Source: Flavobacteriaceae bacterium (GTDB lineage Bacteria; Bacteroidota; Bacteroidia; Flavobacteriales; Flavobacteriaceae). Taken from it: a stretch of DNA of 57,668 nucleotides. The first letter of the stretch is position 1, and each line of letters begins with the position of its first letter. The position numbers and the translations under genes were made by a program. The DNA is taken from positions 1 through 57,668 of the forward strand of contig JANTFW010000005.1 of the NCBI GenBank assembly GCA_024763245.1, written 5' to 3'. Of the stretch, positions 7,330 through 49,897 are shown one piece after another. Below the pieces are notes generated by a model that did no database searches, had not been told where the DNA came from, and saw only the letters and a list, made by a program, of their open reading frames with translations.

Positions 7330-7480
7330 AAGGCAAATAGTGTATTTATGTTAAAATTTGATATTAATATTTTATCTAATAATAGATTTTATCAATAGCC
7401 GTTAATATATCTTTTAAGCTCAAAAAAAAATTAACTATCTTATTTTTATGCTTACTTTCGCGGCTTACTATTGTAATTAG

Positions 7481-8839: not shown

Positions 8840-9089
8840 ATTTATATTGGGAGATCATTCCGATTACCCCGATGATATATTTGTTGTACATACCGAATAT
8901 CCTCGTTTTATCATCAATTTAAAAGATGATGAGGTAACTTGGTTTGAAGATTTAGTAAGCGAAAACGAGGAAGAATTGGCTATTGAAATGGCTAATTTAG
9001 TGGAACAAGCCGGTAAGTTTTACGATAATCAGGTGCATTTGTACGAACAGAGTTCAACAAAGTTTAGTGCCCAAAGTGATGCTGAATGA
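8826..9089 (+). CDS. Small acidic conserved hypothetical protein
   Basis: 87 residues, overlapping the end of the MATE gene by 14 bp and therefore probably translated together with it. The protein is acidic and soluble, with an N-terminal beta-rich part (FILGDHSDYPDDIFVVHTEY, then PRFIINLKDDEVTWFED) and a helical part (ENEEELAIEMANLVEQAGKF). I recall similar short proteins as unnamed conserved genes in Flavobacteriaceae, but no function is known to me. There is no signal peptide or membrane segment. Confidence 0.65.
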   Translation: MKLPKFILGDHSDYPDDIFVVHTEYPRFIINLKDDEVTWFEDLVSENEEELAIEMANLVEQAGKFYDNQVHLYEQSSTKFSAQSDAE

Positions 9090-9187
9090 CAAGTGCTGTC
9101 TGTCTTAGTATAATAAATAGTAATTTTGACAGCTAAAATAACATATCTTTACAGAATATTAAGAAGTTTTAAGCGTTGTATAGTCGA

Positions 9188-10198: not shown

Positions 10199-10201
10199 AA
10201 A

Positions 10202-10915: not shown

Positions 10916-10934
10916 GGTGGTTACACCAAACGAG

Positions 10935-11513
10935 TTAATCTATATCTTTTCTAAAGAAACCTATAGCTACAATAAGTAAGGCTATAAGTGTAATAGGAGG
11001 TAACCCGCCTTTCCAGTTACTCGGCTCTACCCAGCCTTGAATGCCCATAAAAAATAAATGTAGGGCGGCGCCCGTAAGTATACTGTTGAGCAGTACAGTT
11101 GTAGTAAAGACTGCAAAAAGTGTATTTCCTTTTTTAATCTGGTGGTAAATCCACAAGCCTAAAAAGGAGAGGACACCAAAAAGAAGACTGAGGTTTATCA
11201 GTCCGGTAAATCCCGAATACGCATCAAAAAAGTTAGGAAAATAGTGAGGGTTTAGTAAAAGTAAACTCAAAGTGAGATGACCCAAAATAAACACATAGCT
11301 CAATCCACCAATATAATAATTCTTTTTTCGAAATAGATAAACGATAAAAAAGACCACTCCATTAATAGCCATTACTTTATTCCCTAAATATAAAGGTATA
11401 TTTTGGACTGTTGTAGTGCCGAAAAAATGGTATCGAATTAAAGCATACAAAAAAGCAACACTACTAGTAATGCCAACCAATAGCCAAGGAAATTTGAGTT
11501 TGTTTTTTTGCAT
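10935..11513 (-). CDS. Integral membrane protein, ferric-reductase-like in appearance, function unknown
   Basis: 192 residues with about five or six hydrophobic helices (approximate spans 10-28, 45-60, 66-88, 100-122, 130-152 and 170-188). Scattered His residues lie at helix ends (RYHFFGT, GHLTLSLL, YHQIKK, LHLFFMG), which recalls heme-binding four-to-six-helix membrane proteins such as the ferric reductase/MsrQ group. The order is not clear enough to assign heme ligation. The ATG is followed by a basic MQKNKLKFP segment. It lies downstream of the DUF2059 genes, beyond a terminator. Confidence 0.55.
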   Translation of the reverse strand: MQKNKLKFPWLLVGITSSVAFLYALIRYHFFGTTTVQNIPLYLGNKVMAINGVVFFIVYLFRKKNYYIGGLSYVFILGHLTLSLLLLNPHYFPNFFDAYSGFTGLINLSLLFGVLSFLGLWIYHQIKKGNTLFAVFTTTVLLNSILTGAALHLFFMGIQGWVEPSNWKGGLPPITLIALLIVAIGFFRKDID

Positions 11514-11529
11514 GATTTATGAATAAAAA

Positions 11530-11555
11530 AAGCCCAATCAGTTAAGAAAGGGCTT
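11530..11555 (-). terminator. Rho-independent terminator after the DUF2059 gene
   Basis: The inverted repeat AAGCCC / GGGCTT (14-base loop) is followed on the minus strand by TTTTTTATTC. It lies 20 bp past the stop at 11576. Confidence 0.75.
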
Positions 11556-11575
11556 AATATGTAATGAGTTCAGGA

Positions 11576-11977
11576 TTATATAGTTTGGTAAATTTCCTTA
11601 AATCTTTTTTGGAATTGACCTTTATAATTACGCCATTCTCTAATAAACGATAATGTTTTTTGCGAATAATCGATACGTCCTTCTGTGGTGAATTCGGTAT
11701 AAATAGCATCAATATCTTCTTGAGAATACTTTTTGGTAAAATAGGTAATGGCTTCTGCTCTTATTTTTGCGGCTTCTTCGGTTATTTTTTGTCTAAATTC
11801 TGCTTGTTTTTCAGGGGCAACATTGTCAATGTTACTTTCCAAAATACGACTAAAAATAGTAGAGCCGTTATGAGCATCCATCAATTTTTCTAATTTGCTG
11901 GTAAATGCATCTTTGTCTTGTGCAAAACTTCCAACAGCTACAAATAGGGCAATAAAGGTGTAAAATAGATTTTTCAT
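11576..11977 (-). CDS. DUF2059 family exported protein (second copy)
   Basis: 133 residues with a signal peptide (MKNLFYTFIALFVAVGSFAQ). The rest is helical and acidic to neutral. It carries the DUF2059 pattern of a helix pair around FTKKYSQEDIDAIYTEFTTEGR, in which a 'Y/F-x-K-x(y/f)-[ST]-x-x-E/D-[IL]-x-x-[IL]' turn is typical. It follows another DUF2059 gene by 21 bp and ends before a terminator. The proteins are probably periplasmic. The family has no established function that I can cite. Confidence 0.65.
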   Translation of the reverse strand: MKNLFYTFIALFVAVGSFAQDKDAFTSKLEKLMDAHNGSTIFSRILESNIDNVAPEKQAEFRQKITEEAAKIRAEAITYFTKKYSQEDIDAIYTEFTTEGRIDYSQKTLSFIREWRNYKGQFQKRFKEIYQTI

Positions 11978-11998
11978 ATAAAATAAATTAAAATTGGG

Positions 11999-12448
11999 TT
12001 ATGGTGTATATCCTTTTTGATGTAATAAATCGGTGATGTTATGGTATAAATTTTTACTCCAAACTATAGAGGCTTCTTGCGAAGCATCGGACAAATTTAC
12101 AACATTATTTATAAATTTCTGCGCCACTTCTTTTTCGTATAATTTATTTAGCGCAATGATTTCATTATGCGTAAAGTATTTTTTGTAAATAACCACTAAA
12201 TCATCAGACAAACCTTTTAATGATTTTTGTGCCATTACATCTATTTCAATCCACTCCGATTCCGGTACATTTGCATCCTTATATTGCTCCTTAAGCATAG
12301 GAATAAGTTGACCTATAGCACTTTGATATTGCCCCATAGTTCCATTAATCTCAATAAAATGCCTTACATCATTGTCGTAGGATACGTCATTTTGAGAAAA
12401 AAGAGTAAGACTAAAGACTAAAAAGAGTATTGCAAAGAGTTGCTTCAT
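11999..12448 (-). CDS. DUF2059 family exported protein (first copy)
   Basis: About 149 residues from the internal ATG. That start gives a clean signal peptide (MKQLFAILFLVFSLTLFSQ), whereas the longer reading to 12502 adds a non-signal stretch, so 12448 is preferred. The motif KYFTHNEIIALNKLYEKEVAQKF is the DUF2059 helix-turn-helix core, parallel to the KKYSQEDIDAIYTEF of the next gene. The two are divergent paralogues. QueE lies just upstream, with its stop at 12502, so one transcript is possible. Confidence 0.68.
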   Translation of the reverse strand: MKQLFAILFLVFSLTLFSQNDVSYDNDVRHFIEINGTMGQYQSAIGQLIPMLKEQYKDANVPESEWIEIDVMAQKSLKGLSDDLVVIYKKYFTHNEIIALNKLYEKEVAQKFINNVVNLSDASQEASIVWSKNLYHNITDLLHQKGYTP

Positions 12449-12501
12449 AAAATGATCTTGTTTTAGGCAAATATAATAACAAATAGTATACCAAAAAAAC
12501 A

Positions 12502-13125
12502 TTAAGGTATATTCAAGTATTTATGCATTTGGATAGATACTTTCCATTTAGGATTTTTCATTACATAGTCGGTCAGTAAGGGTATTATTTTTTCTCGAAC
12601 ACTCCACTCGGGTTGTAAGTATAGTTGGCAACTAGCCGAAACCTTTGTAGCTTGTTCTTCGGCAAAAGCAAAATCTTGTTTAGATCGTATTATGACTTTA
12701 AGCTCATTTGCTTTAGGATAGATTTGAGGTACCGGTAGTTTATTCCTTTTAGGAGAAAGACATATCCAATCCCACTCACCGGTAAGTGTATCTGAACCGG
12801 AGGTCTCAATATGTAAAATAAAATGCTGTTGGTGCAGTTTTTTTGTAAGATATTCCAAATTCCATTGTAAGGGTTCTCCGCCGGTTACCACTACTGTATT
12901 GGGATATTTTAGGCAATCATCAACAATGGTGTCTGTGGCAGTAGCCGGGTGTAAAGCCGCATTCCAACTCTCTTTTACATCACACCAGTGGCAGCCTACA
13001 TCACAACCACCAATTCGGATAAAATAGGCTGCCTTTCCACTATGATGCCCTTCTCCTTGTAGGGTATAAAACGATTCCATCAAGGGAAGTAGTAGTCCTT
13101 TATCCAGTTTTTCTTGTGTGGTCAT
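12502..13125 (-). CDS. queE: 7-carboxy-7-deazaguanine synthase (radical SAM)
   Basis: About 207 residues when started at the ATG at 13125 (MTTQEKLDKGLLLPLMESFY), which matches the usual N-terminus better than the upstream ATG at 13164. QueE rearranges carboxytetrahydropterin to CDG in the queuosine pathway. The radical SAM cluster motif is in IGGCDVGCHWCDVKESWN (Cys-x3-Cys-x2-Cys), preceded by the substrate loop YTLQGEGHHSGKAAYFIR. VVVTGGEPLQWN is the SAM-binding GGE motif. No queC, queD or queF is in the window. Confidence 0.93.
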   Translation of the reverse strand: MTTQEKLDKGLLLPLMESFYTLQGEGHHSGKAAYFIRIGGCDVGCHWCDVKESWNAALHPATATDTIVDDCLKYPNTVVVTGGEPLQWNLEYLTKKLHQQHFILHIETSGSDTLTGEWDWICLSPKRNKLPVPQIYPKANELKVIIRSKQDFAFAEEQATKVSASCQLYLQPEWSVREKIIPLLTDYVMKNPKWKVSIQMHKYLNIP

Positions 13126-13184
13126 ACGACGGTAAGAATTAAAATAGTTGGCAAAAGTAACCAATAATTAGCAAACACAAAGCT

Positions 13185-14411
13185 TTACTTTTTTTCGGAA
13201 AGTTTACGTAACATTTTAGGGTAGTCACAGCTGGCAAAAATATCGTCCATTACTTCTATTAATATAGAAGAGCCTTCTTGAATTTCTTTATCAGAAATAC
13301 TAAGAGGTGGAGTAATTCGTACCGCCTTTCCTTCAAATAGTAGCCAAAATAATAATAATCCTTTATCCAGTGCACTTAGAATTATTTTACTGGCTATTTC
13401 ATCCGATTCCACCAGTAACGCCAACATAAGTCCTTTACCTCGTATTTCTTTTACCAAAGGATGTTGTAAGGCTTCACGTAATAATTTTTCTTTACGTTCT
13501 ATATCTGACATCAAAGTTCCGGATAATACTTCTTGTAGCGTGGCCAAACCTGCTGCAGCAATTACAGGGTGTCCGCCAAAAGTTGTAATATGCCCTAGTT
13601 TAGGATGTGCTTGTAACAAATCCATATGTTTTTTTGAGGCAATAAAAGCGCCTATAGGCATACCACCACCCAATCCTTTTCCGGTAATTACAATATCAGG
13701 GGTAACATCTTGATGCATAAACTCAAAGAGTTTTCCGGTTCGTCCCATTCCGGATTGAATTTCATCTAAAATTAATAAAGCACCTACTTCTTCGCATCGT
13801 TTTTTCACCGATTTTAGATAACCTTCTCTGGGAACGATAAAGCCGGCACCTCCTTGTATCGTTTCTAAAATAACCGCCGCAGTTTTTGTCGTAATTGTTG
13901 ATAGTGCTTCAACATCATTAAATGCAATAAATGTAGAACCTGGTATTAAGGGTCTAAAAGCACTTTTTGTCGCTTCATTTCCGGCAATGCTCATAGCGCC
14001 TTGCGAGTTGCCGTGGTAAGCATTTTTTGCCGCAATAATCTCAAAGCGATTAGTCACTCTTTTAGCAAGTTTTAACGCCCCTTCGGTAGCTTCTGTTCCT
14101 GAATTTGTCAAATAGACGGAATCTAATCCGGAAGGGAGGTTTTCTACTAATAGTTTCGCTAGGGCTACTTGGGGTTGCTGAATAAATTCACCATAGACCA
14201 TTACGTGTGTATAGCGATCTAATTGTGCTTTTATGGCTGTAGTTACTTTTTTAGGATTATGCCCCAGTGTGTTTGCCGAAACACCGGCAATAAAATCAAG
14301 ATACGATTTTCCGGAGGTATCAAATAGGTAAGAACCCTTTGCCTTAGCCACTTCCAACGCAAGAGGATGCGGTGTGGTTTGCGCTTGATATCTAAAAAAA
14401 TCTTTTTTCAA
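13185..14411 (-). CDS. Class III PLP-dependent aminotransferase (acetylornithine/4-aminobutyrate type)
   Basis: 408 residues. The fold-type I aminotransferase core is complete: the NSGTEATEGALKLAKRVT glycine-rich PLP-phosphate segment, the ILDEIQSGMGRTGKLFEF Asp/Glu motif and the PLP lysine in DIVITGKGLGGGMPIGAF. The substrate cannot be fixed from sequence. Related Flavobacteriaceae genes are annotated only as aspartate aminotransferase family. The start is a TTG, since no ATG is available in the gap. It begins 6 bp after the OstA-like stop and reads directly into MKKDFFRYQAQTTPHPLALE, as homologues do. It is probably co-transcribed with the OstA-like gene. Confidence 0.88.
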   Translation of the reverse strand: MKKDFFRYQAQTTPHPLALEVAKAKGSYLFDTSGKSYLDFIAGVSANTLGHNPKKVTTAIKAQLDRYTHVMVYGEFIQQPQVALAKLLVENLPSGLDSVYLTNSGTEATEGALKLAKRVTNRFEIIAAKNAYHGNSQGAMSIAGNEATKSAFRPLIPGSTFIAFNDVEALSTITTKTAAVILETIQGGAGFIVPREGYLKSVKKRCEEVGALLILDEIQSGMGRTGKLFEFMHQDVTPDIVITGKGLGGGMPIGAFIASKKHMDLLQAHPKLGHITTFGGHPVIAAAGLATLQEVLSGTLMSDIERKEKLLREALQHPLVKEIRGKGLMLALLVESDEIASKIILSALDKGLLLFWLLFEGKAVRITPPLSISDKEIQEGSSILIEVMDDIFASCDYPKMLRKLSEKK

Positions 14412-14417
14412 AGTGAT

Positions 14418-16142
14418 TTATTTCTGTTTAATTTCCATTTTAGTCGCCGTATCAGGTTGGGGCGATTTTTGGGTTTCTTCGTTTGGCGATTCTTTATCAG
14501 AATTAAGAATTGCTTGGTTTTGGAGCGCTTTTGCTGCGTCTTTTTCGGCTTGTTTTTGTTTGGCAATAGCGGCTTTTTTAGCATCTTCTTTAGCCTGTTT
14601 TTCGGCCTGTTTAATCGCTTTTATTAGAGCTTCATCACCGGGATCTCGTTTAAAAATATCGGCTTTGTTTAAGGGTCTTTCATCAATACGCCAAATAAAA
14701 CCGGGGAGTAGTTCTTCTTCTTTGGGAAATTTTGAAGGAGGATATGTTTTTCCGTCCGGTTTGGTAATATATTTTATATTTTCTATAGCACCATCGGTAA
14801 ACTTAAATTTGATATTACTACACGTAAGTTTTGTTATACCTATTAATTGGTGTTTTTCATCTCGATTGTAGTTAATCATCTGTCCGTTACCCGACACATA
14901 AATACGGCTAATGGTATCTTTTACAAACTTGGCAAATAGATTTTTCCCTTTTATTTGACTAAATCCACCGGTACTATCTTGTTTTATGACAAAAGCCTTG
15001 TGATAGACTTTTAATGAATCTAATTTATGGGTAAGGGTATTTGAGGTAAAAAAGATGCTGTCGCCGGTAATCTGATTTACATCGCTCCACATTACGGGAT
15101 TGCGATACATTTTTGTAATTCCAAGCGACTCATTAGAGTAAAGCGAATCGCATTTTCCTTGTAAATTTTCTTTAAAAAATTTGACGTGATGATACGCCCG
15201 CATTATCCTGTTTTTTGGTTTTCCTGTTACCAAGAGTGTGTCTCCGTGCATATATAAAGAATCCTTTTTTACCAAAGAAATAGCGATAGGTTTTTGAATG
15301 ATAAATACGGAATCTTTATTCTCAAAATATTCGGCATAGCCTCCTTTAATAACCGACTTGTTAATGGTGTCTAAAACGGTAATATGACCACTGGCCGAGG
15401 CAAATTGTCTTATTTCATCGTAATATAAGCTATCTCCTTTAATAATTCTGTCGTTATAATCGATACGTGCGTCTTTTACAAAATACGAAATTTTGGTTTT
15501 ACTGTTATGGTAGCCTTTTTTACTAAAAATAGTATTGTTGTTTTTTCGGTCTAGAATGCTAGTAGCGCCATTGAAATTTGATATACCGGTATCGGTATAA
15601 TATTCCAAATTATCAGAGGTTATTTGGTGATCTTTGTTGGTAATAATTACTTGAGATTGTGCTAGAAACTTGTGTTGTTCTAAATAATAATAGCCTATTT
15701 CGCTTTCCAAAGTATTACTACTGTCTCTAATGGTGGCGTGATGTTGGTAGTAGAGCATTTGTTTTGTCCTATCAAAATCCAAGGTATCTGTAGTAAGGGT
15801 CATTTTAGGGTCTTTTAGAATAACTTTTCCCCAAGATTTGGCTATTTTGGTATTGCCGTTATAGGATACAAATTTACTGGTTTGATATATTGAATCTCCT
15901 TGATTAATCAAGACGTTACCAAAGGCTTTTACAAGGTTTGCTTCTTGATAAATAAGTGCCTGACGACATTGCAAGCTTGCCCCTTCATGCTCTACAAGTA
16001 CATTTCCTAATGCCACGATAGCACCCGGATATTTTTCCTCATTTTTAAAAGTATTATCCGAATGGATGATTTTTATTTTCTTTTGTTGAGAAAATAATAA
16101 GAAGGAACTTAAAAGAACTAGTAAATTTAATAAATACTTCAA
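14418..16142 (-). CDS. OstA-like (LptA/OstA domain) exported protein
   Basis: About 574 residues. It carries an OstA/LptA-type beta-jellyroll array at the N-terminus (IKIIHSDNTF, PGAIVALGNVLVEHEGASLQ, then repeated 'xGxVxLxD' strands), extending to about residue 480. The last 90 residues are Lys/Ala/Glu rich and low complexity (KQAEKQAKEDAKKAAIAKQK). LptA-type domains carry lipopolysaccharide across the periplasm, so a role in LPS or outer-membrane lipid transport is the family expectation. The start is a TTG at 16142 that gives a good signal peptide (LKYLLNLLVLLSSFLLFSQ). A second TTG at 16160 is possible, and no ATG is available. Confidence 0.8.
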   Translation of the reverse strand: MKYLLNLLVLLSSFLLFSQQKKIKIIHSDNTFKNEEKYPGAIVALGNVLVEHEGASLQCRQALIYQEANLVKAFGNVLINQGDSIYQTSKFVSYNGNTKIAKSWGKVILKDPKMTLTTDTLDFDRTKQMLYYQHHATIRDSSNTLESEIGYYYLEQHKFLAQSQVIITNKDHQITSDNLEYYTDTGISNFNGATSILDRKNNNTIFSKKGYHNSKTKISYFVKDARIDYNDRIIKGDSLYYDEIRQFASASGHITVLDTINKSVIKGGYAEYFENKDSVFIIQKPIAISLVKKDSLYMHGDTLLVTGKPKNRIMRAYHHVKFFKENLQGKCDSLYSNESLGITKMYRNPVMWSDVNQITGDSIFFTSNTLTHKLDSLKVYHKAFVIKQDSTGGFSQIKGKNLFAKFVKDTISRIYVSGNGQMINYNRDEKHQLIGITKLTCSNIKFKFTDGAIENIKYITKPDGKTYPPSKFPKEEELLPGFIWRIDERPLNKADIFKRDPGDEALIKAIKQAEKQAKEDAKKAAIAKQKQAEKDAAKALQNQAILNSDKESPNEETQKSPQPDTATKMEIKQK

Positions 16143-29917: not shown

Positions 29918-31336
29918 TTATACTAGAATTCTCCAAATTTGAGCTATCAAAAAGGTAACAATAAAACCTGTAATGATTGGAAGTATTGTTGCGACAAGTG
30001 TCCATTTAAGACTGTTTGTTTCTTTATAAATGGTATAAATTGTTGTACTACAAGGATTGTGTAATAGGCTAAACAACATTACATTTACAGCGGTTAGTAA
30101 TGTCCAACCACCAGCCTTTAGAATATCTGCTGTAGCAGTTACAGAGTTTAATTCAAATAGTACGCCGTCACCTGCTCCAGCGTGAATACCTGTAACCATA
30201 ACGGTAAGCATGAGTATAGTAGGTATTACAATTTCATTCGCTGGAATGGCTACAATATAAGCTACTAAAATAACACCGTTTAAACCTAATAAAAAACCAA
30301 AACCATCTAATGCATGTATGCTCCAAGCGGCTATACTTTCGTTACCAATACTAATATTAGAAATAAGCCAGATAACGGCGCCAGCAGGTGCTGCAAACAC
30401 GATGGCTCTCCATAAAACGATAAGGGTTCTATCTATTAACGAGGTATATATAGTTTTCCAAAAAACTGGAGGTCTGTAGGGAGGCAATTCTAAATTAAAA
30501 GTAGAAATTTCTCCTTTTAACAGTGTTTTGGATAAGCCCCAAGAAAAGAAAAACATAAAAAATATACCCAATACAGCAATACCAATAACTGCTGTAAGTG
30601 ATGCAAAACTTGACAAGGATTGGGGAACTACTGCGCCAATAAATAGGGTAGCTAACAATATTTGTGTAGGCCAACGACCGTTGCAAAGCGAAAAATTATT
30701 GGTAATAATAGCGATTAATCGTTCTCTGGGGCTATCGATAATTCGTGTAGCAACAACACCTGCAGCATTGCAACCAAAACCCATACTCATAGTAAGGGCT
30801 TGTTTGCCGTGTGCTCCCGATTTTTTAAATAAACTATCCATATTAAAAGCAACTCTCGGTAAGTAACCAAAATCTTCTAACAAGGTAAATAATGGAAAAA
30901 AGATAGCCATTGGGGGCAACATCACTGCAATAACCCAAGCTACAGCCAAATACACACCATCAAACAAAAAGCCATTTAACCACCAAGGAAAACCAATGTT
31001 TGTTCCTAAATTCTTTAAGAACGGATGAACCGTGTCTAAAAGCAAAGCCGATAACATAGAGGACGGATAATTCGCACCGACAATGGTTAGCCACAACACC
31101 ACACTTAAAATTAAAAGCATAATGGGAAAGCCCCAAATTCTACTCGTTACAATTTTATCTATTTTAGCATCTAATCTAAATTTTGATTTTTGATTGTCTT
31201 TTGTAACCGAATCTTCTACAATTTTGGCTGCATCAGTATAAATGCTTTCTGCTAAATTATCGTGAAAATCATCACCAATTTGCCAGCGCAAATCTTCTGC
31301 TAAAGCTATGATATTTTCTATGTTCTTAGTATTCAT
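29918..31336 (-). CDS. feoB: Split FeoB, membrane gate subunit
   Basis: 472 residues with about 10 helices. It corresponds to the transmembrane part of FeoB, which moves divalent iron (or possibly manganese) into the cell. The conserved [40 protein letters not shown] and [18 protein letters not shown] blocks are clear. The second gate motif reads [17 protein letters not shown], where classical FeoB has a C-S/G-A-R-L-P motif. This 'CNGR(W/F)P' form belongs to a divergent FeoB branch. The first 60 residues are a soluble helical spacer. It overlaps the G-protein gene by 11 bp in another frame, so the two halves of FeoB are separate polypeptides. Confidence 0.88.
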
Positions 31337-32105
31337 TACTTACAAATTTGCCTGATTTTAATGCTTCTATTATTTGAGTGTCTCCCTCAAGTAATCTAAA
31401 CGCAATCCATCGGCTATTTGAGATATTTGGAAATTCTTTTTCAATGGTTTCGCTTAATTCGTTTACCGATTTTTCTATATTTTTAGGAATATTTTTTATT
31501 CTGTGCGGTTTGCATTGTATTTTTCCATTTGCCAATTCGCTAATGGTTTGAATGAGTTCTGGTATTCCTTTTTGAAATCGTGCACTAGTTGGTACGACTG
31601 GTATACCAAGGTCTTTAGCTAGAATTCGAGTATCAATTTTGATATTATTTCTGTCAGCTTCATCCATTAAATTAAGGCATAAAACAGCTTTGCCAGTAAT
31701 TTCTAAGATTTGTAAAACCAAGTTTAAGTTTCGTTCTAATCGACTGGCATCTACAACAATTATGGTTACCGTTGGTTTGCCAAAAAGAATAAAATCTCTT
31801 GCAACTTCTTCATCCTCGGAGGTAGATAAAAGCGAATAGGTACCGGGTAAATCTACCAATTTGTATTTTTGATTGTTGTACACATAAGCACCTTCTGCTC
31901 TTGTGACCGTTTTTCCCGGCCAATTTCCTGTGTGTTGTCGTAAGCCTGTCAATGCATTAAATACGGTACTCTTTCCGGTGTTAGGGTTTCCTGCAAGAGC
32001 AAGTATAAAATCAAAATCCTCTGTTTTTACACCCAGTTTTTTTAATCCGTCTGCATTAAAATGTGTACAGGTTTCGCAAGCTGTTTTTGTTTTATTTTCC
32101 ATCAT
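31326..32105 (-). CDS. feoB: Split FeoB, N-terminal G-protein subunit
   Basis: About 259 residues from the ATG at 32105; a GTG at 32108 and an ATG at 32102 are alternatives. All G motifs are present: G1 [15 protein letters not shown], switch I in [13 protein letters not shown]3 [12 protein letters not shown]4 NLMDEAD and G5 [10 protein letters not shown] helical GDI-like tail follows ([13 protein letters not shown]). The N-terminal 35 residues carry a CETC motif before the G1 box, which may be a redox or metal site. The stop lies 11 bp inside the membrane-subunit gene, and the start overlaps the upstream regulator gene by 14 bp. Confidence 0.88.
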
Positions 32106-33123
32106 CACATTTTTTAATTAAAATTTTAGCAGCTTGATCTTTTCTCAATGCTATTGCCGTTCCTTTTATTAAATAGGCTTTTGGATCGCCTAAAGGATTT
32201 AATAAATCAATTTCAATTTTTGCACCTTTTACAAAACCTAAATCCAATAAACGTCTTCGGTTTTCTCCTCTACATTCTTTAGATAGACCTACAATTATTG
32301 CCTTTTTATGGAGTTGTAAACTAGATAAACGGGCAATGTTTTCTTCATGAATTTCTTCTTTATGTAATACAGAAACGGTAATATTTCCTGCAACAATAGG
32401 AGCTAAAATAAATTGTTCGCCCTCAGCATGAAACACAATACGTGTAGTGTTGTTTTCAATAACTTTGATGGTAGAATAGAGATGTATATTTTCTGCTAGA
32501 ATCTGTTTGTAAATAATTTTCGGTTCATCTTCGATATGAATAATTCTACCCATGGTATTTTCTTTTAATGAAGATAATGGAATACCTTTTTTTAAGGCAA
32601 TTTTACCTTTGCTTGTAGGTATGGGATCCCCGTGTGGGTCATATATTGGATTTCCTAAAAGACTGGAGAGTTTATTAATTTCCGAAGTATTTAGCTCATG
32701 TTCTTTTTGCTCTGCACGTTCGTGCCATTCTGTTTTTTTTAAACCCGTTTTTTCGGATAAATATTTTTCCCATAACCGATGTGCTCTTATTATTTGTAAT
32801 GCATATTCGCTTCCTTTGGGTGTTAGTTTATAAGAATCTTTTTCTAAAAAAATTAAATCACGGTCTATCATTTTATTTAGACTTTCAATAATTAATGTAT
32901 TGGAAAAGTGTAAAGCATTTGTTAAAGCATTGGTAGTGATAGAATTGTTAGATTCTTGATTGTGATATAAGAATTTTAATATATCTTCAATTATGGTTTT
33001 ATCTTTTTGGCGGTAAAGATTTTTAAAAAAAAAGAATACTCCTTTTTTAGGTCTAAAAACAAAAAAAAGCAGAAGGCTAATTCCAAAAAATAGAACGAGT
33101 GCTGTTATTGGATTGTAGTTCAT
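32092..33123 (-). CDS. Membrane-anchored DtxR-like protein with two FeoA-like domains
   Basis: 343 residues. Residues of about 7-24 form one membrane helix ([17 protein letters not shown]), followed by a basic stretch. Residues of about 43-105 are a winged helix-turn-helix of the iron-dependent repressor type. Residues of about 108-165 are the DtxR dimerisation and metal domain with His115, Glu119, His134, Glu138, Glu141 and His142, then DPHGDPIP. Residues of about 190-252 look like a first SH3/FeoA-like domain, and 264-337 are a clear FeoA domain ([19 protein letters not shown], then [16 protein letters not shown]). It overlaps both neighbours. It probably supplies FeoA function to the split FeoB; whether it binds DNA is not known. 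Confidence 0.85.
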
Positions 33124-33773
33124 CTTTTTAAGTATAAATTCTTAGTTACATTTTCAGAAATACGGAATTGATCTTTGTTTGTTTCTATGACCATTGAATT
33201 ATCAAAATCTTCTTTCTCGATGACCTTTATTTTTGTCCCAATACTTAGGTTATTTTTGTTTAAAAATTTTAAGAAGGTATCCGAATCATTTTTTACTTCA
33301 ACAAAAACGCCTTTTTCGCCAATTTGGAATTGATTGAGGCAAATGGTTTTCGTCGTTTTAAAATTTCCATGTTTATTTGGAATGGGCTCTCCGTGTGGAT
33401 CAACCGTGGGAAAATCTAGAAAGGCATCTAAATGATTGGTTAATTTATCGGATTGAATATGTTCTAATTGTTCGGCTACTTCATGAACTTCATCCCAACT
33501 AAAATTAAGTTTTTTTACTAAAAAAGTTTCCCAAAGGCGATGTTTTCTTATTATAGAAAGCGCTACTTTAGTTCCTTTGGGGTTCAGTTTAACACCTTTA
33601 TATTTTTGATAGGTAAGAAGCTCCTTTTTTGCTAGTTTTTTGAGCATATCTGTTACAGAAGATGCTTTTGTTTCAATCTTTTTTGCAATCAGATTGGTGT
33701 TTACATCGGATTGGAACTTTTGCTCCAGGCTATAGATTTCTTTGATATAATTCTCCTCTGACTTAGATAACAT
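33120..33773 (-). CDS. DtxR/MntR-type metal-dependent transcriptional regulator
   Basis: 217 residues. The winged HTH (LIAKKIETKASSVTDMLKKL) is followed by the metal domain with His78, Glu82, His97, Glu101, Glu104 and His105 (IIRKHRLWETF, then WDEVHEVAEQLEHIQSDKL). It ends in an SH3/FeoA-like domain. Glu101 replaces the Cys102 of DtxR, as in MntR, but the N-terminal position of MntR Asp8 is Asn and that of Glu11 is Lys, so metal specificity is undecided. It is first in the Feo operon, overlaps the next gene by 4 bp (ATGA) and has a palindromic operator upstream. It probably represses its own operon when metal is plentiful. Confidence 0.9.
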   Translation of the reverse strand: MLSKSEENYIKEIYSLEQKFQSDVNTNLIAKKIETKASSVTDMLKKLAKKELLTYQKYKGVKLNPKGTKVALSIIRKHRLWETFLVKKLNFSWDEVHEVAEQLEHIQSDKLTNHLDAFLDFPTVDPHGEPIPNKHGNFKTTKTICLNQFQIGEKGVFVEVKNDSDTFLKFLNKNNLSIGTKIKVIEKEDFDNSMVIETNKDQFRISENVTKNLYLKR

Positions 33774-41498: not shown

Positions 41499-44400
41499 AT
41501 GAAAAAATTTCCAAAATTGATTCTAGATGGTAATGAAGCGGTAGCACGTATTGCTCATAAAACCAATGAGGTTTGTGCGATTTATCCCATTACTCCTTCA
41601 TCGCCTATGGGGGAACATGCCGAAGCATACAGCGCGAAACATATGACCAATATATATGGTGATATTCCTAACGTAGTGGAGATGCAAAGTGAAGGTGGTG
41701 CTGCAGGTGCGGTTCATGGTGGTTTGCAAGGTGGTGCTTTAACCACAACCTTTACAGCTTCACAAGGTTTATTATTGATGATTCCTAATATGTACAAAAT
41801 AGCCGGTGAATTATTACCTACTGTTTTTCATATTGCAGCAAGAACAATTGCTACACATGCTTTATCCATATTCGGTGACCATTCCGATGTGATGGCAACC
41901 CGACAAACCGGATTTGCTATGCTGTTTGGTGGATCGGTACAGGAGGCTCACGATTTTGCCTTGATTTCGCAAGTAGCGACCTTAAAATCAAGAGTACCTT
42001 TTTTAAATGTTTTTGATGGGTTTAGAACGTCTCACGAGATTCAAAAAATTGACGGTATTACCGATGATATTATTAAGGAAATGATGCCTTTTGATAAGAT
42101 AATGGAGCATAAAGAACGTGCGTTAAATCCTAAAAATCCGGTCATTAGAGGTACTGCACAAAATCCCGATGTGTTTTTTCAAGCTCGCGAGGCGGCTAAT
42201 TTGTATTATCAAAAAGCGCCTGCTATTGTACAAGAAACGATGGATGAGTTTTATAAACATACCGGTCGTAAATACGAACTGTTTGATTACATAGGACATC
42301 CTGAGGCCGAACGAGTTATTGTTTTGATGGGTTCCGGAACTGGTCCGGTTAGAGAAACGATTGACACTATGGTGGAAGCAGGAGAAAAAGTAGGAGCCAT
42401 CATCATTCGTCTGTATCGTCCTTTCGATATGGAATACTTTATCAATAAATTACCTGATACTGTTAAAAGTATTGCCGTAATGGATCGTACAAAAGAATCA
42501 GGAAGTATAGGAGAGCCTGTATATCTAGATGTGGTAGCTGCCTTTGCAGAAAGTGACAAACCTATGCCTAAAATTGTAGGTGGTCGTTACGGTTTATCTT
42601 CTAAAGAGTTTACTCCGGCCATGGTCAAAGGAATTTATGATAATTTAGCCAAAGAAACCCCTAAAAATCACTTTACCGTAGGTATTATTGATGATGTTTC
42701 ACATACTCATATTGATGTAGCTGATACATTCATGACTAAAAAATCTACTTTTAATAGTTTATTTTATGGTTTAGGGTCTGATGGTACTGTAAGTGCTAAC
42801 AAAAACTCGATTAAAATAATAGGTGATACAACTGATGGTTATGCACAAGGTTATTTTGTATACGATTCTAATAAAGCAGGTTCGCAAACTATTTCGCACT
42901 TGCGTTTTGGCCCTGATCCAATTTATTCTACCTACCTAATTAACTCAGCTGATTTTGTCGCATGTCATAAATATACATTTATTGAAAAGTATGATATGAT
43001 TGCCAAAATTAAAAAAGGAGGAACTTTCTTATTAAACTCACCTTATTCTAAAGACGAAGTTTGGGATAATTTACCACGTAAAGCGCAAGAGCAAATTATT
43101 GCTAAAGAACTTGATTTTTATGTGATTGATGCTACAAAAGTTGCACAAGATGCCAAATTAGGACGTCGAACCAATACAATTCTTCAAACCTGTTTCTTTG
43201 CAATATCCGGTATTTTACCTAAAGATGATGCGATAAAACGTATTAAAGATGCGATTGTAAAATCCTACTCTCATAAAGGTGATGCCGTGGTACAAATGAA
43301 CTTTAACGGAGTGGATAAAGCTATCGAAAACCTCTTTAAAGTGGATTATCCAAAACAAATTACCAGTAACAAAGAATTAAAACCTTTTGTAACTAGTGAT
43401 GCAACAGACTTTACTAAAGAAGTCTTAGCCATGAGTATGGCGGGTAAAGGAGATTTACTTCCTGTAGGTGTTTTCTTGCCTGATGGAACATTCCCTACCG
43501 GTACTTCACAATATCAAAAACGTGATATCGCTGAATTCGTTCCTGTTTGGGATGATAATGAGTTGTGTACACAGTGTAACAAATGTAGTATGGTTTGTCC
43601 TCATGCTGCCATTCGTTCTAAAGTAGTAGATAACGGTTTGGTATCAGAATTTCCCGATACCTTGACAAGTGTGGCGGCTAAGGGACGTCCTTTTGATAAA
43701 GAAACCGAAAGTTATGTGCTTCAGGTATCGCCGTATGATTGTACAGGATGTAATCTTTGTGTAGCGGTTTGTCCTGCTATCAGTAAAGAAGATGAAAACT
43801 TTAAGGCAATTAATATGCATGCCATTGCCGAAGTTAAAAAAGATGAAGCTCAAAATTGGGATCATTTTATAAAATTACCGGATTATGATCGTACTAAATT
43901 GACAACTAATAATGTAAAAGGATCACAATTCTTAGAACCCTTATTTGAATTTTCAGGTGCTTGTCCCGGTTGTGGAGAAACCCCTTATTTAAAATTGTTA
44001 ACGCAGTTATGGGGTGATGATGTGGTGATTGCGAATGCTACAGGATGTTCATCAATTTATGGAGGAAACTTACCTACAACACCGTATACTAAAAATAATG
44101 ATGGTAGAGGACCTGCCTGGGCTAACTCTTTGTTCGAAGATAATGCCGAGTTTGGTTTGGGTATTAAATTAGCCTTAAATGCTAAACAAGATCGTGCTAG
44201 AAAGCTTCTTAAATCTTTGGAAGAAGAAATAGGAATCGATTTAGTAACCTCTATTTTGGATAATGACCAGAAAGATGAGACAGCTAAAGCCGCTCAATTT
44301 GAAAATATAGATAAATTAAATGCGATTCTTGAAAGATTAAACAACGAAGATGCTAAAGAATTATTGAGTCTATCGGATAATTTAAGTACCAAACAAATGT

Positions 44401-45026
44401 GGATTGTCGGTGGTGATGGTTGGGCTTATGATATTGGTTATGGTGGTTTAGATCATATTCTTTCGTCTGGTGAAAATGTGAATATCTTAGTAATGGATAC
44501 AGAGGTGTATTCAAACACCGGAGGACAACAATCTAAGGCAACCCCTATTGCTGCCAGTGCTAAATTTGCCTTAGGTGGTAAAAAAGTAGCTAAAAAAGAT
44601 TTGGCCTTACAAGCAGTTTCTTATGGAAGTGTTTATGTAGCTCAGGTTGCTTCAGGTGCCAAAGATGCACAAACCGTTAAAGCTTTTAAGGAAGCAGCAG
44701 CATATGATGGACCATCTATTATTATAGCTTATTCACATTGTATTGAACACGGTTATGATATGGGTGCAGGGGCCGAACACCAAAAAATAGCAGTTGAAAC
44801 CGGCTATTGGCCTTTATTCCGCTTTAATCCTGAAAACCCAAAAGGTAAGAAGTTTAAAGTTGATTCTAAAGCTCCGATTGGTTCTGTTGAAGATTTCATG
44901 TATAAAGAAGCTCGTTTTGCTCGAGTCAAAAAAATGGATGAAAAATTTGCATCACTTATATTGGAGAAAGCACAAGAGCAAGTAGATGATAAATGGGAAC
45001 GATTACAAATTTTTAGTAACTTATAA
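41499..45026 (+). CDS. nifJ: Pyruvate:ferredoxin (flavodoxin) oxidoreductase
   Basis: 1175 residues, the size of the single-chain enzyme. It converts pyruvate and CoA to acetyl-CoA and CO2 and reduces ferredoxin or flavodoxin. The gamma/alpha-like part begins ICAIYPITPSSPMGEHAEA-like near residue 27. Two 4Fe-4S motifs are in LCTQCNKCSMVCPHAAI and CTGCNLCVAVCPAI. The thiamine-binding beta part has SGACPGCGETPYLKLLTQ, IANATGCSSIYGGNLPTTP and the late MDTEVYSNTGGQQSKATP. All expected domains are present. It ends at a strong terminator. The enzyme is oxygen sensitive in many hosts, so its presence suggests micro-oxic or anaerobic capacity. Confidence 0.97.
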   Translation: MKKFPKLILDGNEAVARIAHKTNEVCAIYPITPSSPMGEHAEAYSAKHMTNIYGDIPNVVEMQSEGGAAGAVHGGLQGGALTTTFTASQGLLLMIPNMYKIAGELLPTVFHIAARTIATHALSIFGDHSDVMATRQTGFAMLFGGSVQEAHDFALISQVATLKSRVPFLNVFDGFRTSHEIQKIDGITDDIIKEMMPFDKIMEHKERALNPKNPVIRGTAQNPDVFFQAREAANLYYQKAPAIVQETMDEFYKHTGRKYELFDYIGHPEAERVIVLMGSGTGPVRETIDTMVEAGEKVGAIIIRLYRPFDMEYFINKLPDTVKSIAVMDRTKESGSIGEPVYLDVVAAFAESDKPMPKIVGGRYGLSSKEFTPAMVKGIYDNLAKETPKNHFTVGIIDDVSHTHIDVADTFMTKKSTFNSLFYGLGSDGTVSANKNSIKIIGDTTDGYAQGYFVYDSNKAGSQTISHLRFGPDPIYSTYLINSADFVACHKYTFIEKYDMIAKIKKGGTFLLNSPYSKDEVWDNLPRKAQEQIIAKELDFYVIDATKVAQDAKLGRRTNTILQTCFFAISGILPKDDAIKRIKDAIVKSYSHKGDAVVQMNFNGVDKAIENLFKVDYPKQITSNKELKPFVTSDATDFTKEVLAMSMAGKGDLLPVGVFLPDGTFPTGTSQYQKRDIAEFVPVWDDNELCTQCNKCSMVCPHAAIRSKVVDNGLVSEFPDTLTSVAAKGRPFDKETESYVLQVSPYDCTGCNLCVAVCPAISKEDENFKAINMHAIAEVKKDEAQNWDHFIKLPDYDRTKLTTNNVKGSQFLEPLFEFSGACPGCGETPYLKLLTQLWGDDVVIANATGCSSIYGGNLPTTPYTKNNDGRGPAWANSLFEDNAEFGLGIKLALNAKQDRARKLLKSLEEEIGIDLVTSILDNDQKDETAKAAQFENIDKLNAILERLNNEDAKELLSLSDNLSTKQMWIVGGDGWAYDIGYGGLDHILSSGENVNILVMDTEVYSNTGGQQSKATPIAASAKFALGGKKVAKKDLALQAVSYGSVYVAQVASGAKDAQTVKAFKEAAAYDGPSIIIAYSHCIEHGYDMGAGAEHQKIAVETGYWPLFRFNPENPKGKKFKVDSKAPIGSVEDFMYKEARFARVKKMDEKFASLILEKAQEQVDDKWERLQIFSNL

Positions 45027-45289: not shown

Positions 45290-46078
45290 ATGAAAAAAAA
45301 CTACAAATTTTATTTATCGCTATTGGCTGTTCCCATTGTTTCCTTAACCTTATTGAGCTTATCAGGAGGTAGAGATGGCCAATACAGTGGATCTCCTGGA
45401 GATGGAGGAGCTAATTGTGTCGTATGTCATTCACCAGGGGGTAATTTTAATACCAATGCCAGTATTAGCAGTACGATACCTGCTTCTGGTTTTGTATCTG
45501 GAAATACGTATGATGTAACGGTTTCGGTTACTTCTACTTCTTCCAAACATGGCTTTCAATTAACCGCAGAAGATGCCGCAGATACCAAAGTAGGTACTTT
45601 TGTCGCTGGATCCGGCAGTCAAGTGGTTAATGCCGGAGGCACACACGTAACCCATACATTATCAGGAAATCAATTGACCAGCTGGACGTTTTCTTGGACG
45701 GCACCCGAGACCACAGAAGGAAATCAAGTAACTTTCTATGCCGCTGTTAATGCCACTAATTCAGATTCTTCTACAACGGGTGACGAAGTGGTAACCACTT
45801 CTGCCCAATATGCTATGAACACGGTAGGAATTAAGGATTATGAGCGTATTTCTTTCTCAATTTATCCTAATCCATCTGAATCGTATATTTCTTTTATGAT
45901 GGAGGAGCTCCCTGCTGAAAATACAGAATTGACCATTACCAACTATCAAGGTCAAATCGTAAAAAGAGTAACCGATAATTTTACTCAAATTGATATTTCT
46001 TCTTTATCCAAAGGGGTGTACTTTGTGCAAGTTATTGCCGGTAATAAATTAGGTTTTAGCAAGTTTGTTAAATCCTAA
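45290..46078 (+). CDS. T9SS-exported protein with a choice-of-anchor V-type domain and CxxCH motif
   Basis: 262 residues. The signal peptide ends near residue 25. Residues of about 40-180 contain SPGDGGANCVVCHSPGGNF, with Cys43, Cys46 and His47 forming a heme-c binding type motif, followed by a beta-sandwich (YDVTVSVTSTSSKHGFQLTA, then LTSWTFSWTAP). This is the choice-of-anchor V domain pattern, which usually carries this CxxCH. The C-terminal 80 residues (FSIYPNPSESYISF, then SLSKGVYFVQVIAGNKLGFS) are a type A T9SS sorting domain, so it is cell-surface or secreted. It is the first of a group of exported heme-motif proteins. Confidence 0.85.
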   Translation: MKKNYKFYLSLLAVPIVSLTLLSLSGGRDGQYSGSPGDGGANCVVCHSPGGNFNTNASISSTIPASGFVSGNTYDVTVSVTSTSSKHGFQLTAEDAADTKVGTFVAGSGSQVVNAGGTHVTHTLSGNQLTSWTFSWTAPETTEGNQVTFYAAVNATNSDSSTTGDEVVTTSAQYAMNTVGIKDYERISFSIYPNPSESYISFMMEELPAENTELTITNYQGQIVKRVTDNFTQIDISSLSKGVYFVQVIAGNKLGFSKFVKS

Positions 46079-46280: not shown

Positions 46281-47516
46281 ATGATGCTTAGATTTAGTAA
46301 ATTTGTAACTCGTGCAAAAAATATCGTATTCTCCATAGTCTTTCTAATGCCCTTATGGAGTAATGCTCAGGATAATTGGGTAGCTCCCGAATCGACAAAT
46401 CAATTGGTATCACCGGTAACAGATACCGACCAAGGTATAGCAGAAGGTAGTAAATTATACCAATCACTATGTGTGGCTTGCCACGGTATTTACGGTAAAG
46501 GAGACGGTGTAGCTGCTGCAGGACTTGATCCCAAACCTGCAAATTTTTATAGCGAAGCATTTCGTAAACAATCGGATGGGGCTGTTTTTTGGAAATTATC
46601 GAAGGGAAGAGGCGTGATGGCCGGCTACGAAAATATGTTGAATGAAAAAGACCGATGGGCTTTAGTTGCCTATTTAAAAAGTCTTCATAAAACAGATAAA
46701 AAGGATAGTCCAAAAAAAATTGACAATAATTCTGTAAAAGGAACCTTTCTGTTTACACAACTCATTAATACTCAAACGGTTCAAGTGTTACCTCAAAAAA
46801 GTGCAGAGTTTACCATTCAACATAGGTTTGGACCCACAACTTTAAATAAGCGTTTTATCAATCAGTTTATGGGGATGGATTTAAGCTCTAATATTCGTAT
46901 TGCCTTTGCCATGGCGTTAAATGAAAATATGTATATGGAGTTGGGTAGAACAAAATTTGGGAAAGTGTACGATGTTGGTATTAAATACCTTTGGCTGAGA
47001 CAAACCCTTGATACCAAAACACCATTTAGCTTGGCGGTCTATTCTAATTTAGGGGTTATGACAGCTAAATTTCCAAGTCTTGTAGAAGGTAGTACTTTTG
47101 AGGATGGATCAAACTTTGACTATATATTTTCACACCGTCTTACCTATAATTTTCAACTAATTATGGCCAGAAAATTTTCAGATATATTTTCATTTCAACT
47201 TAGTCCGGTTTTTATTTGGAGAAACTTGGTACCGGTAGATGAGAATAATTTGGTGGTAGCAATACCCATTAGTGGCCGTTTTAAACTATCGACCAAGACA
47301 GCACTTCTGTTTGAAGTAGCACCGGTATTTAATACGGCTAATGAAAGATTACCGCTATCCTTATCTTATGAAATCGCCAGTAGTAGCGCCCACGCATTTC
47401 AAATTGTATTGAGTTCTACTGATCAAATATTGGAGTCTGCTGTATATACACAACCTACTTATGATTATACCAAAGGTCAATTTGTGCTAGGTTTTAACAT
47501 TAAACGATTATTCTAA
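46281..47516 (+). CDS. Cytochrome c domain fused to a DUF5777-like outer-membrane beta-barrel
   Basis: 411 residues. After a signal peptide (residues 1-30) there is a monoheme cytochrome c domain of about residues 50-135. It has Cys64, Cys67 and His68 in LCVACHGIYGKGDGVAA, the distal Met ligand probably Met113 in KGRGVMAGYENML, and the terminal helix DRWALVAYLKSL. The remaining 265 residues are alternating beta strands of the DUF5777-like barrel (FTIQHRFGPTTLNKRF, then RIAFAMALNENMYMELG) ending in a final aromatic strand (QFVLGFNIKRLF), as outer-membrane proteins do. It is probably an outer-membrane barrel with a periplasmic or surface heme. It overlaps the next gene by one base (TAATG). Confidence 0.82.
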   Translation: MMLRFSKFVTRAKNIVFSIVFLMPLWSNAQDNWVAPESTNQLVSPVTDTDQGIAEGSKLYQSLCVACHGIYGKGDGVAAAGLDPKPANFYSEAFRKQSDGAVFWKLSKGRGVMAGYENMLNEKDRWALVAYLKSLHKTDKKDSPKKIDNNSVKGTFLFTQLINTQTVQVLPQKSAEFTIQHRFGPTTLNKRFINQFMGMDLSSNIRIAFAMALNENMYMELGRTKFGKVYDVGIKYLWLRQTLDTKTPFSLAVYSNLGVMTAKFPSLVEGSTFEDGSNFDYIFSHRLTYNFQLIMARKFSDIFSFQLSPVFIWRNLVPVDENNLVVAIPISGRFKLSTKTALLFEVAPVFNTANERLPLSLSYEIASSSAHAFQIVLSSTDQILESAVYTQPTYDYTKGQFVLGFNIKRLF

Positions 47517-47938
47517 TGAGAATTACTAAAATATTTTTTGTTTCTTTGGTTTTGGTGATGATTTCTCTACAATCTTGCACCAAAGATAAAGGGCCTATCG
47601 AACCGGAGGTAATACTTACTACGGTTAGTTTTTCCATGGATGTTCAACCCATTTTTGATACGAATTGTATCTCTTGTCACAATACGGCAAATAGTCAATA
47701 TTATGGTTATTTAGATCTATCAACAGGTTATGCCTATTCTAGTTTAGTTGCTGTTGTTTCTAATGGATATAGTCCTAATCTTCGTGTTTCAAGTGGAGAT
47801 GCTGAAAACTCGGTTTTATGGCAAAAAGTCAATAATTCGCAACTTTTTGGAAGCAATATGCCACTGGGAGGAACTATAACAAATGCAGAAATAGAAACAA
47901 TTAAAGTCTGGATTAATGAAGGGGCAATAGAGAATTAG
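47516..47938 (+). CDS. Lipoprotein cytochrome c-like protein
   Basis: 140 residues. The lipobox is in VLVMISLQSC (Cys21), so the protein is lipidated. One heme motif (Cys51, Cys54, His55 in NCISCHNTANS) is followed by a Met in GSNMPLGG that fits the sixth ligand. The rest (YGYLDLSTGYAYSSLVAVV) is the 'planctomycete cytochrome C' type layout common in Bacteroidota. It is translationally coupled to the cytochrome/barrel gene by a one-base overlap and probably passes electrons to or from it, which is an inference. Confidence 0.8.
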   Translation: MRITKIFFVSLVLVMISLQSCTKDKGPIEPEVILTTVSFSMDVQPIFDTNCISCHNTANSQYYGYLDLSTGYAYSSLVAVVSNGYSPNLRVSSGDAENSVLWQKVNNSQLFGSNMPLGGTITNAEIETIKVWINEGAIEN

Positions 47939-48271: not shown

Positions 48272-49897
48272 ATGAATAGAATTAAAAGAATTAAAAGAAT
48301 TAAATTAGGATTCTTTTTTGTAGGTATATTATTTATAGTGTTTAAAACAGAAGCTCAGGACCTTACACTTGGGTTGTTAAAATCGGATGTTTCTCTGGAA
48401 GAGACGTATACACTTTTTACTCCGGAAAAGAATACCGATGTTTACTTGGTAGATAATTGTGGGCAAAAAATAAATCAGTGGACCTTCTCCGAAAAACCAG
48501 GGGCAACTTGTTATATTTTACCCAATGGTGATTTGTTGCGAGCTGGTAAAGATTCCCTAGAAATAAGGGATTGGCAAAACGACCTACTTTGGTCATATGC
48601 TATGAATGAACACGGTTATCAACAGCATCATGATATCGAACCTCTTCCAAATGGAAATATTTTATGCATTTTAACAGACAATTACACACGGGATGAAATG
48701 ATTGAAGCGGGACGCAATCCAGCAATTACCGATGACACATTTAAATTAGATAGAATTATTGAACTGCAACCAGTAGGTGTAAATGATGCCAATTTAGTGT
48801 GGGAATGGAAATTTTTTGACCATTTAATTCAAGATTTTGATGCTTCAAAATTAAACTATGGTCAAGTGGAAAATCATCCTGAGCGCATTGATATTAATAT
48901 TCCTAATGATAACACATATGATTTTACACATCTAAATGCAGTAGATTACAACTCGAATCTAGATCAAATTTTACTTTCTTCGAGAAACTTAAATGAAATA
49001 ATAATTATAGATCATAGTACAACTACCCTTGAAGCTTCAGGACACACTGGAGGTAATTCTAATAAAGGGGGTGATCTTTTATGGCGTTGGGGGAATCCTC
49101 AATTTTATAGGCAAGGAACAGCAGATGATCAAAAACTATTTTTCCAACACGATTCTAAATGGGTAGAAACTGGATATCTTGACGAAGGAAAAATTTCAGT
49201 TTTTAATAATGGTGCTGATGGAACCCAAACTTATAGTTCAGTTCATCTAATACAACCGGAACTATCTAACGGAGAATACCTTATGGAAAATAATACATTT
49301 TTACCACAAGAATTTGATTGGTCTTGGAATGGTGCCTTTTTGGGAATTACTGTTTATGAACCTATTAAATCAAGTGCTCAAAGTTTGCCTAATGGAAATT
49401 TTGTGATTTGTGAGAGAAGTAAAGGTCAAATATCCGAAATAAATAAGAATGGACAACATTTGTGGTCCTATAAAAATCCTACAGGTACAGTAGTATACAA
49501 TCAATTTGATGAAATAATAAATCTTGATAACGCATTATTTAGAGGAGAAAAATACCCTTCCAATTATCCCGGTTTTTTAGGAAAAGATCTTACCCCAATA
49601 GGATTGATAGAAGATCAAAACAGCTTATCAGAAAGTTGTACTGACGCCTTAGGGAATGATTCATTTGTTTTGGATACATTTTATTTTCAAAATCCTGTAC
49701 AAGATCATGTGTTAAAACTAAATCACCTTGAAGGTATCCAAGCTATAACTATTTCTAATATTATGGGGCAACAGGTATTTGAGAGTACAATTCCCGGTAA
49801 ATCATCTATTGAAGTGTTCTTACCTACTGCTGCGGTTTATACTGTGCAAATAAGTACGAATCGGGGGATATTTACTAAGAAAATTATAGTTTTATAA
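48272..49897 (+). CDS. Arylsulfotransferase-like (ASST) protein exported by T9SS
   Basis: 541 residues. The first residues (NRIKRIKRIKLGFFFVGILF) form a basic n-region plus signal core. The body is a beta-propeller-like ASST fold: ATCYILPNGDLLRAGKDSLE, QQHHDIEPLPNGNILCI, DFTHLNAVDYNSNLDQIL, GGDLLWRWGNPQFYRQG and KLFFQHDSKWVETGYL. His residues in these motifs fit sulfate-transfer or ligand sites. The C-terminal 75 residues (FYFQNPVQDHVLKLNHLE, then TISNIMGQQVFESTI and TNRGIFTKKIIVL) are a type A T9SS sorting domain. It is secreted or surface-bound. Substrate unknown. Confidence 0.82.
   Translation: MNRIKRIKRIKLGFFFVGILFIVFKTEAQDLTLGLLKSDVSLEETYTLFTPEKNTDVYLVDNCGQKINQWTFSEKPGATCYILPNGDLLRAGKDSLEIRDWQNDLLWSYAMNEHGYQQHHDIEPLPNGNILCILTDNYTRDEMIEAGRNPAITDDTFKLDRIIELQPVGVNDANLVWEWKFFDHLIQDFDASKLNYGQVENHPERIDINIPNDNTYDFTHLNAVDYNSNLDQILLSSRNLNEIIIIDHSTTTLEASGHTGGNSNKGGDLLWRWGNPQFYRQGTADDQKLFFQHDSKWVETGYLDEGKISVFNNGADGTQTYSSVHLIQPELSNGEYLMENNTFLPQEFDWSWNGAFLGITVYEPIKSSAQSLPNGNFVICERSKGQISEINKNGQHLWSYKNPTGTVVYNQFDEIINLDNALFRGEKYPSNYPGFLGKDLTPIGLIEDQNSLSESCTDALGNDSFVLDTFYFQNPVQDHVLKLNHLEGIQAITISNIMGQQVFESTIPGKSSIEVFLPTAAVYTVQISTNRGIFTKKIIVL
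48278..48304 (+). repeat. Three in-frame copies of a 9-base repeat in the signal peptide
   Basis: AGAATTAAA occurs three times in tandem, each encoding Arg-Ile-Lys. The repeats keep frame and extend the basic n-region of the signal peptide. Confidence 0.85.

Follow-up and report, generated by a model that had tools for sequence, protein, structure and literature searches.

The locus studied here raises the question of whether a Bacteroidota protein that joins a cytochrome c to a membrane barrel serves electron transfer at the outer membrane and, if so, whether it belongs to one of the known systems of this kind. The gene lies at positions 46,281 to 47,516 (forward strand) of the window, by which we mean the whole stretch of 57,668 nucleotides that was analyzed. 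It encodes a 411-residue protein composed of an N-terminal signal sequence (assigned by eye), a monoheme class I cytochrome c, and a DUF5777 beta-barrel. The cytochrome domain (residues 53 to 135; positions 46,437 to 46,685, forward strand) was recognized by the Pfam profile Cytochrom_C at 47.2 bits against a cutoff of 21.3 (E value of 5.7e-12). It carries the heme motif C64-V-A-C67-H68 and an axial-type methionine, Met113, and thus has the N-terminal CxxCH and distal Met within a Cytochrom_C domain that mark class I cytochromes c. The C-terminal part (residues 156 to 411; positions 46,746 to 47,513, forward strand) matched the DUF5777 profile (PF19089), labeled by Pfam a "membrane bound beta barrel domain," over its entire length (1 to 247 of 247) at 193.5 bits against a cutoff of 23.1 (E value of 4.7e-57). 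The original prediction had placed a cytochrome c and an outer-membrane barrel in one protein, and both domains indeed exceed their Pfam cutoffs; the residues that it named (Cys64, Cys67, His68, and distal Met113) are correctly positioned and show no variation in a five-row alignment.

The barrel was also recovered by structure prediction. AlphaFold2, run on residues 31 to 411 with 77 alignment rows, returned a model with a pLDDT of 92.4 and a pTM of 0.80 in which the C-terminal part takes the form of a barrel; the sole stretch with a pLDDT below 50 (model residues 113 to 118) falls in the linker. Reading the model gave a count of 12 strands, with model residues 273 to 284 and 294 to 305 each taken as one strand broken by a bulge, and this count agrees with the match to KdgM (PDB entry 4pr7; Z score of 18.3, rmsd of 2.1 over 167 of 171 residues). 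Further matches were to NanC (2wjq; Z score of 17.5, rmsd of 2.9 over 184 residues) and FapF (5o65; Z score of 18.3, rmsd of 4.3 over 212 residues). KdgM and NanC are 12-stranded barrels. By the standard topology of outer-membrane barrels, both termini face the periplasm, and the heme of the fused protein is therefore expected to be periplasmic. The cytochrome domain itself resembles cytochrome c552 of Thioalkalivibrio paradoxus (9vr0, a VIA match; Z score of 17.5, rmsd of 3.2 over 114 residues, 30% identity); it also matched the alternative complex III cytochrome subunit (6lod chain E; Z score of 14.2, rmsd of 2.0 over 103 residues).

Immediately downstream, an open reading frame at positions 47,516 to 47,938 (forward strand) encodes a 140-residue lipoprotein monoheme cytochrome c with a lipobox cysteine (Cys21), the motif CISCH at residues 51 to 55, and Met115. 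The ATG of this gene has one base in common with the TAA stop of the fused gene (47,514 to 47,516), so that the one-base overlap with a lipoprotein cytochrome bearing Cys51, Cys54, and His55, as originally proposed, is borne out. These three residues, along with Cys21, P45, L68, W132, A137, and N140, are unchanged in all 29 aligned relatives, and Met115 is present in at least 90% of the 29. In searches of the lipoprotein against Pfam profiles, no score reached any cutoff, and the NCBIfam model for the hydrazine synthase alpha subunit gave a weak match under its cutoff (E value of 3.7e-5). The AlphaFold model (pLDDT of 89) returned two hydrazine synthase chains as its sole Foldseek matches below 0.001. 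We assign the lipoprotein as a cytochrome on the basis of its conserved motif, its conserved Met, the model, and the Foldseek match to hydrazine synthase.

Whether this fusion is a genuine gene was judged from its recurrence. Within the family, full-length fused matches were found in 5 of 397 genomes, the source genome of the window included. A scan of named genomes retrieved 166 relatives, of which 80 were kept; among these, at least 15 other contigs (L110 to L124) carry the uninterrupted fusion, with lengths of 391 to 431 residues. Together with the window gene, these make up the set of 16 fused genes used below; gene neighborhoods were examined for 35 of the 80 (L110 to L144). Every one of the 16 proteins contains exactly one CxxCH, so the motif is not lost across homologues, and in each the Met of a G[RK]G-x-M-A motif follows the first heme Cys at a distance of 49 residues, matching the predicted ligands throughout. 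The C-terminal residue is aromatic (Phe) in all 16. In the alignment of fused proteins, the length of the interdomain linker varies and the heme spacing is constant. The lipoprotein cytochrome stands directly 3' of the fused gene at 16 of 16 loci; at one (L116), it was found by tblastn and has the motif CTTQCH. That the fusion arose from faulty assembly or annotation, or represents a decaying gene, might be argued from the family and phylum scans, in which most DUF5777 genes lack the fusion. Against this stand the same uninterrupted fusion on 15 further contigs, the retention of the heme ligands in 16 of 16 proteins, and the grouping of the 16 in a single clade. In view of these genes, we regard this explanation as refuted, its remaining probability being negligible.

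The barrel tree (89 sequences, root not inferred) unites the 16 fused barrels in one clade with support of 99/95; in the cytochrome tree, the fused rows also group together, with weaker support (89/86). Sister to the fused clade is the split operon of L125, followed by those of L094 and L095. These three operons encode the cytochrome, the barrel, and the lipoprotein as separate genes, arranged in that order and either abutting or overlapping at their ends. Because the fused clade is nested among split operons, adjacent cytochrome and barrel genes apparently became one gene in a single joining event; the reverse history, with one or several fissions, is also conceivable on an unrooted tree of sequences but less likely. 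The next clade out comprises seven loci (L126, L127, L128, L132, L138, L085, and L087), all of which have a separate cytochrome c gene. NrfC plus NrfD genes, which resemble the DsrO/DsrP and QrcC/QrcD quinone modules, occur at six of the seven. A hexaheme lipoprotein occurs at two of the seven; against the Pfam MtrC/MtrF (II/IV) domain, the example from L275 scored 35.5 bits (cutoff of 30), and that from L274 scored 28.4 bits, under the cutoff. The L275 contig also encodes an ethylbenzene-dehydrogenase-type heme protein, and its region from 754 to 14,495 forms a redox island with this EB_dh gene, two pairs of lipoprotein cytochrome and DUF5777 genes, the hexaheme cytochrome, two NrfC-NrfD pairs, and two cytochrome c genes. 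No NrfC or NrfD gene was seen among the listed neighbors of the fused loci or in the window cluster, and the remaining neighbors of fused loci vary. The NrfC/NrfD genes and hexaheme lipoproteins of the sister clade lend contextual support to electron transfer at the outer membrane; this is the strongest evidence for such a role, and it belongs to relatives rather than to the fused genes themselves.

A wider view of DUF5777 gives the barrel a broader setting. The domain is present in 153 of 395 sampled Bacteroidota genomes and is lacking from G116, a genome assigned to the same genus as the window. Forty loci were fetched across the phylum, and three (L216, L226, and L228) were dropped because the barrel was not recognized; the remaining 37 include one short contig (L208). 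A member of the lipoprotein cytochrome family seen in the window lay within seven genes of DUF5777 at 29 of the 37 loci and a YceI gene nearby at 32, whereas a cytochrome c gene of the fused-domain family was near only 1, the other 36 having none. The usual Bacteroidota cluster runs lipoprotein cytochrome, OB-fold protein, YceI, and DUF5777; it has the barrel and lipoprotein cytochrome families in common with the window set, in which the cytochrome c is fused and no adjoining YceI gene was seen. As most DUF5777 genes come without the cytochrome c and mostly with YceI, the basic job of the barrel may not be electron transfer. It could be an anchor or a nutrient or solute channel, with the cytochrome serving a periplasmic dehydrogenase or oxidase and no redox partner crossing the outer membrane. 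The prevalence of DUF5777 barrels that lack this cytochrome is consistent with that reading, as is the closeness of the cytochrome fold to a soluble cytochrome c552 and to an alternative complex III subunit. We nevertheless consider it improbable, since it offers no account of why the clusters should also contain hexaheme lipoproteins and a conserved lipoprotein cytochrome.

Among known systems, the closest in plan are Cyc2 and Cyt572, which are Fe(II) oxidases; Cyc2 is a marker for microbial iron oxidation. According to PMC8406198, Cyc2 has a 16-strand OprO/OprP-like barrel and an AXPXFAR[Q/K][T/Y] signature before the CXXCH, and the criteria for membership include a single-CXXCH cytochrome N-terminal to the barrel and a length above 365 residues. 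The fused protein shares this architecture: a signal, one N-terminal CxxCH cytochrome joined to a barrel, about 400 residues in all, and a heme expected at the periplasmic mouth. It differs in the barrel, which has 12 strands and belongs to DUF5777 (the KdgM match spans 167 of 171 residues) rather than being a 16-strand OprO/OprP-like barrel, and in the coupled lipoprotein cytochrome. The signature core P.FAR[QK][TY] was found in none of the 16 fused proteins. Membership in Cyc2, assessed against the published description of that family, was rejected on signature and strand number. Given the absence of the signature from all 16 proteins and the 16 strands of Cyc2, the fused gene is probably a convergent construction on a Cyc2-like plan.

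The original prediction had likened the locus to porin-cytochrome systems that move electrons across the outer membrane. An outer-membrane barrel accompanied by c-type cytochromes, with a lipoprotein cytochrome in the set, is common to this locus and to MtrCAB, MtoAB, and PioAB, and hexaheme lipoproteins do occur in distant kin loci of the fused set. In the MtrB-type conduit, a decaheme cytochrome sits within a 26-strand barrel (PMC8406198), as opposed to one CxxCH and 12 strands here, and an MtrCAB-type assignment was rejected on these grounds. As modeled, a 12-strand KdgM-like barrel should have no room for a heme domain, compared with the 26-strand MtrB-type and 16-strand Cyc2 barrels, which makes an MtrCAB-like wire unlikely. 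The likeness therefore holds for the conserved fusion, the coupled lipoprotein cytochrome, and the respiratory history of the cluster; it is unsupported for the heme wire, given the single heme of the fused protein, its 12-strand KdgM-like barrel, and a heme that is periplasmic by standard topology.

In a true transmembrane conduit, electrons would leave the fused heme on the periplasmic side, hop through the barrel or along it, and arrive at the lipoprotein cytochrome on the surface, perhaps continuing to a CxxCH-bearing Reeler protein. The overlapping genes do encode two hemes, and MtrC-like hexaheme lipoproteins are found at sister loci. Export of the lipoprotein would be signaled in Bacteroidota by C-X-K-(D/E)2-X (as given in PMC5080379). 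The lipoprotein tail reads C-x-K-D at 15 of 16 fused loci, and the full C-X-K-(D/E)2 motif is present at 3 of 16; the window lipoprotein, with C-T-K-D-K, has a partial motif. One heme cannot span the membrane, and the barrel appears too narrow for the heme domain, so we hold such a conduit to be unlikely.

The Reeler, or choice-of-anchor V, protein that the conduit might include is encoded upstream of the fused gene at positions 45,290 to 46,078 (forward strand) and has both a type IX secretion system (T9SS) tail and a CVVCH motif, in accordance with the upstream T9SS cargo carrying its own CxxCH that had been foreseen. In the family, choice_anch_V occurs in 2 of 60 genomes (that of the window and G010), in both adjoining DUF5777, and it adjoins DUF5777 in a third genome (G287) as well. 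The N-terminal motif of the domain was CxCH at 28, CxxCH at 4, and otherwise at 1 of 33 loci (L237 to L268 and L272), a sample biased toward top-scoring matches. Three of the four CxxCH loci are those of the window, G010, and G287, all beside DUF5777, which counts in favor of the conduit. In a listing of phylum genomes that have both domains, inspected by eye, the two lie mostly on separate contigs. The link of the T9SS cargo to DUF5777 is better than expected, yet the cargo gene accompanies 1 of the 16 fused loci, that of the window only; it is a possible accessory of the module. A second T9SS gene, arylsulfotransferase-like (48,272 to 49,897), was considered as a cluster member and rejected, as it was not seen beside other listed fused loci.

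On the whole, we lean modestly toward the view that the fused protein and the lipoprotein constitute an outer-membrane-anchored electron-transfer module of Bacteroidota. For this module, an arrangement like that of Cyc2, in which a soluble partner gains access to the heme at the barrel or by passing through it, would by analogy fit better than a conducting chain. Embedded in the outer membrane, the barrel would have both ends on the periplasmic side, which would place the heme at that mouth of the pore. There, a small partner arriving from outside, for which Fe(II), sulfur species, or a small mediator are candidates, would exchange an electron with the heme, much as a donor has been proposed to reach the heme of Cyc2 via the pore (PMC8406198). 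The lipoprotein cytochrome, in the same membrane, could relay electrons to or from periplasmic carriers; alternatively, if exported to the surface, it could relay them to an outside partner.

The source genome does contain an alternative-complex-III-like gene run with a cytochrome subunit. A cytochrome c match at G000:C72 (30% identity), considered as a second copy of the fused domain, is rather a cytochrome in such a run. On contig C15 of the same genome, a further cluster (L193:4411-11969) appears to encode an oxidoreductase of the molybdopterin type together with Fe-S and NrfD subunits and sulfur-type neighbors; of these, NrfD was the one tested.

The 15 named records with fused genes are metagenome-assembled genomes labeled "Flavobacteriales," "Flavobacteriaceae," or "Chlorobiota," and four of them (L110, L116, L122, and L123) bear the sample names 4281-140 or 134-614, which appear in published work on deep-sea hydrothermal vent deposits (PMC9793634). 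Among viral contigs, four pattern matches yielded no relative. A bolder scenario, which we put forward tentatively and would sooner doubt than assert, is that Bacteroidota invented a fused cytochrome-barrel independently of Cyc2, on a 12-strand barrel of an unstudied family, for electron exchange in either direction with a dissolved partner. Its single origin would lie in a set of neighboring genes, relatives of which connect the quinone pool, by way of NrfCD, with multiheme lipoproteins at the surface, and Flavobacteriales at deep-sea vents would make use of the fused protein.

If so, the fused set would be a second, seemingly unrelated fused cytochrome-porin, meaning that the design evolved twice, and the DUF5777 barrel would gain a function. 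The literature searched contained no fused cytochrome-porin family besides Cyc2, no paper on a YceI/NrfD/beta-barrel cluster, nothing evidently relevant on monoheme cytochromes with barrels in Flavobacteria, and, within a largely open-access coverage, no mention of DUF5777. In the accessible parts of four papers on Cyc2 or iron oxidation (PMC8406198, PMC10654088, PMC12442345, and PMC7029218), no word starting with "Bacteroid" was found. The module would also provide a concrete candidate, open to testing, for electron exchange at the outer membrane of Bacteroidota, a phylum absent from those parts of the Cyc2 papers. The fused set, whose relatives adjoin known respiratory parts, looks like a route for electrons at the outer membrane that has gone unstudied.

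Several other features were observed in passing. A second trio of the same plan, consisting of a cytochrome c, a different barrel, and a lipoprotein, occurs at L096 to L099, L105 to L107, L129, and L273. Its cytochrome c is mostly 45 to 49% identical to the fused domain, its monoheme lipoprotein has about 100 residues, and its barrel, of about 395 residues, matches Porin_O_P weakly (barely above the cutoff in the one tested). In L107, this trio stands among RND-efflux and heavy-metal-associated genes. Shortly upstream of the cluster (41,499 to 45,026), the window further encodes a pyruvate:ferredoxin/flavodoxin oxidoreductase that consists of a single chain. An iron-uptake set at 29,918 to 33,773 includes two DtxR/FeoA-type proteins and a FeoB that is split into overlapping FeoB_N (31,326 to 32,108) and Gate/FeoB_C (29,918 to 31,336) parts.
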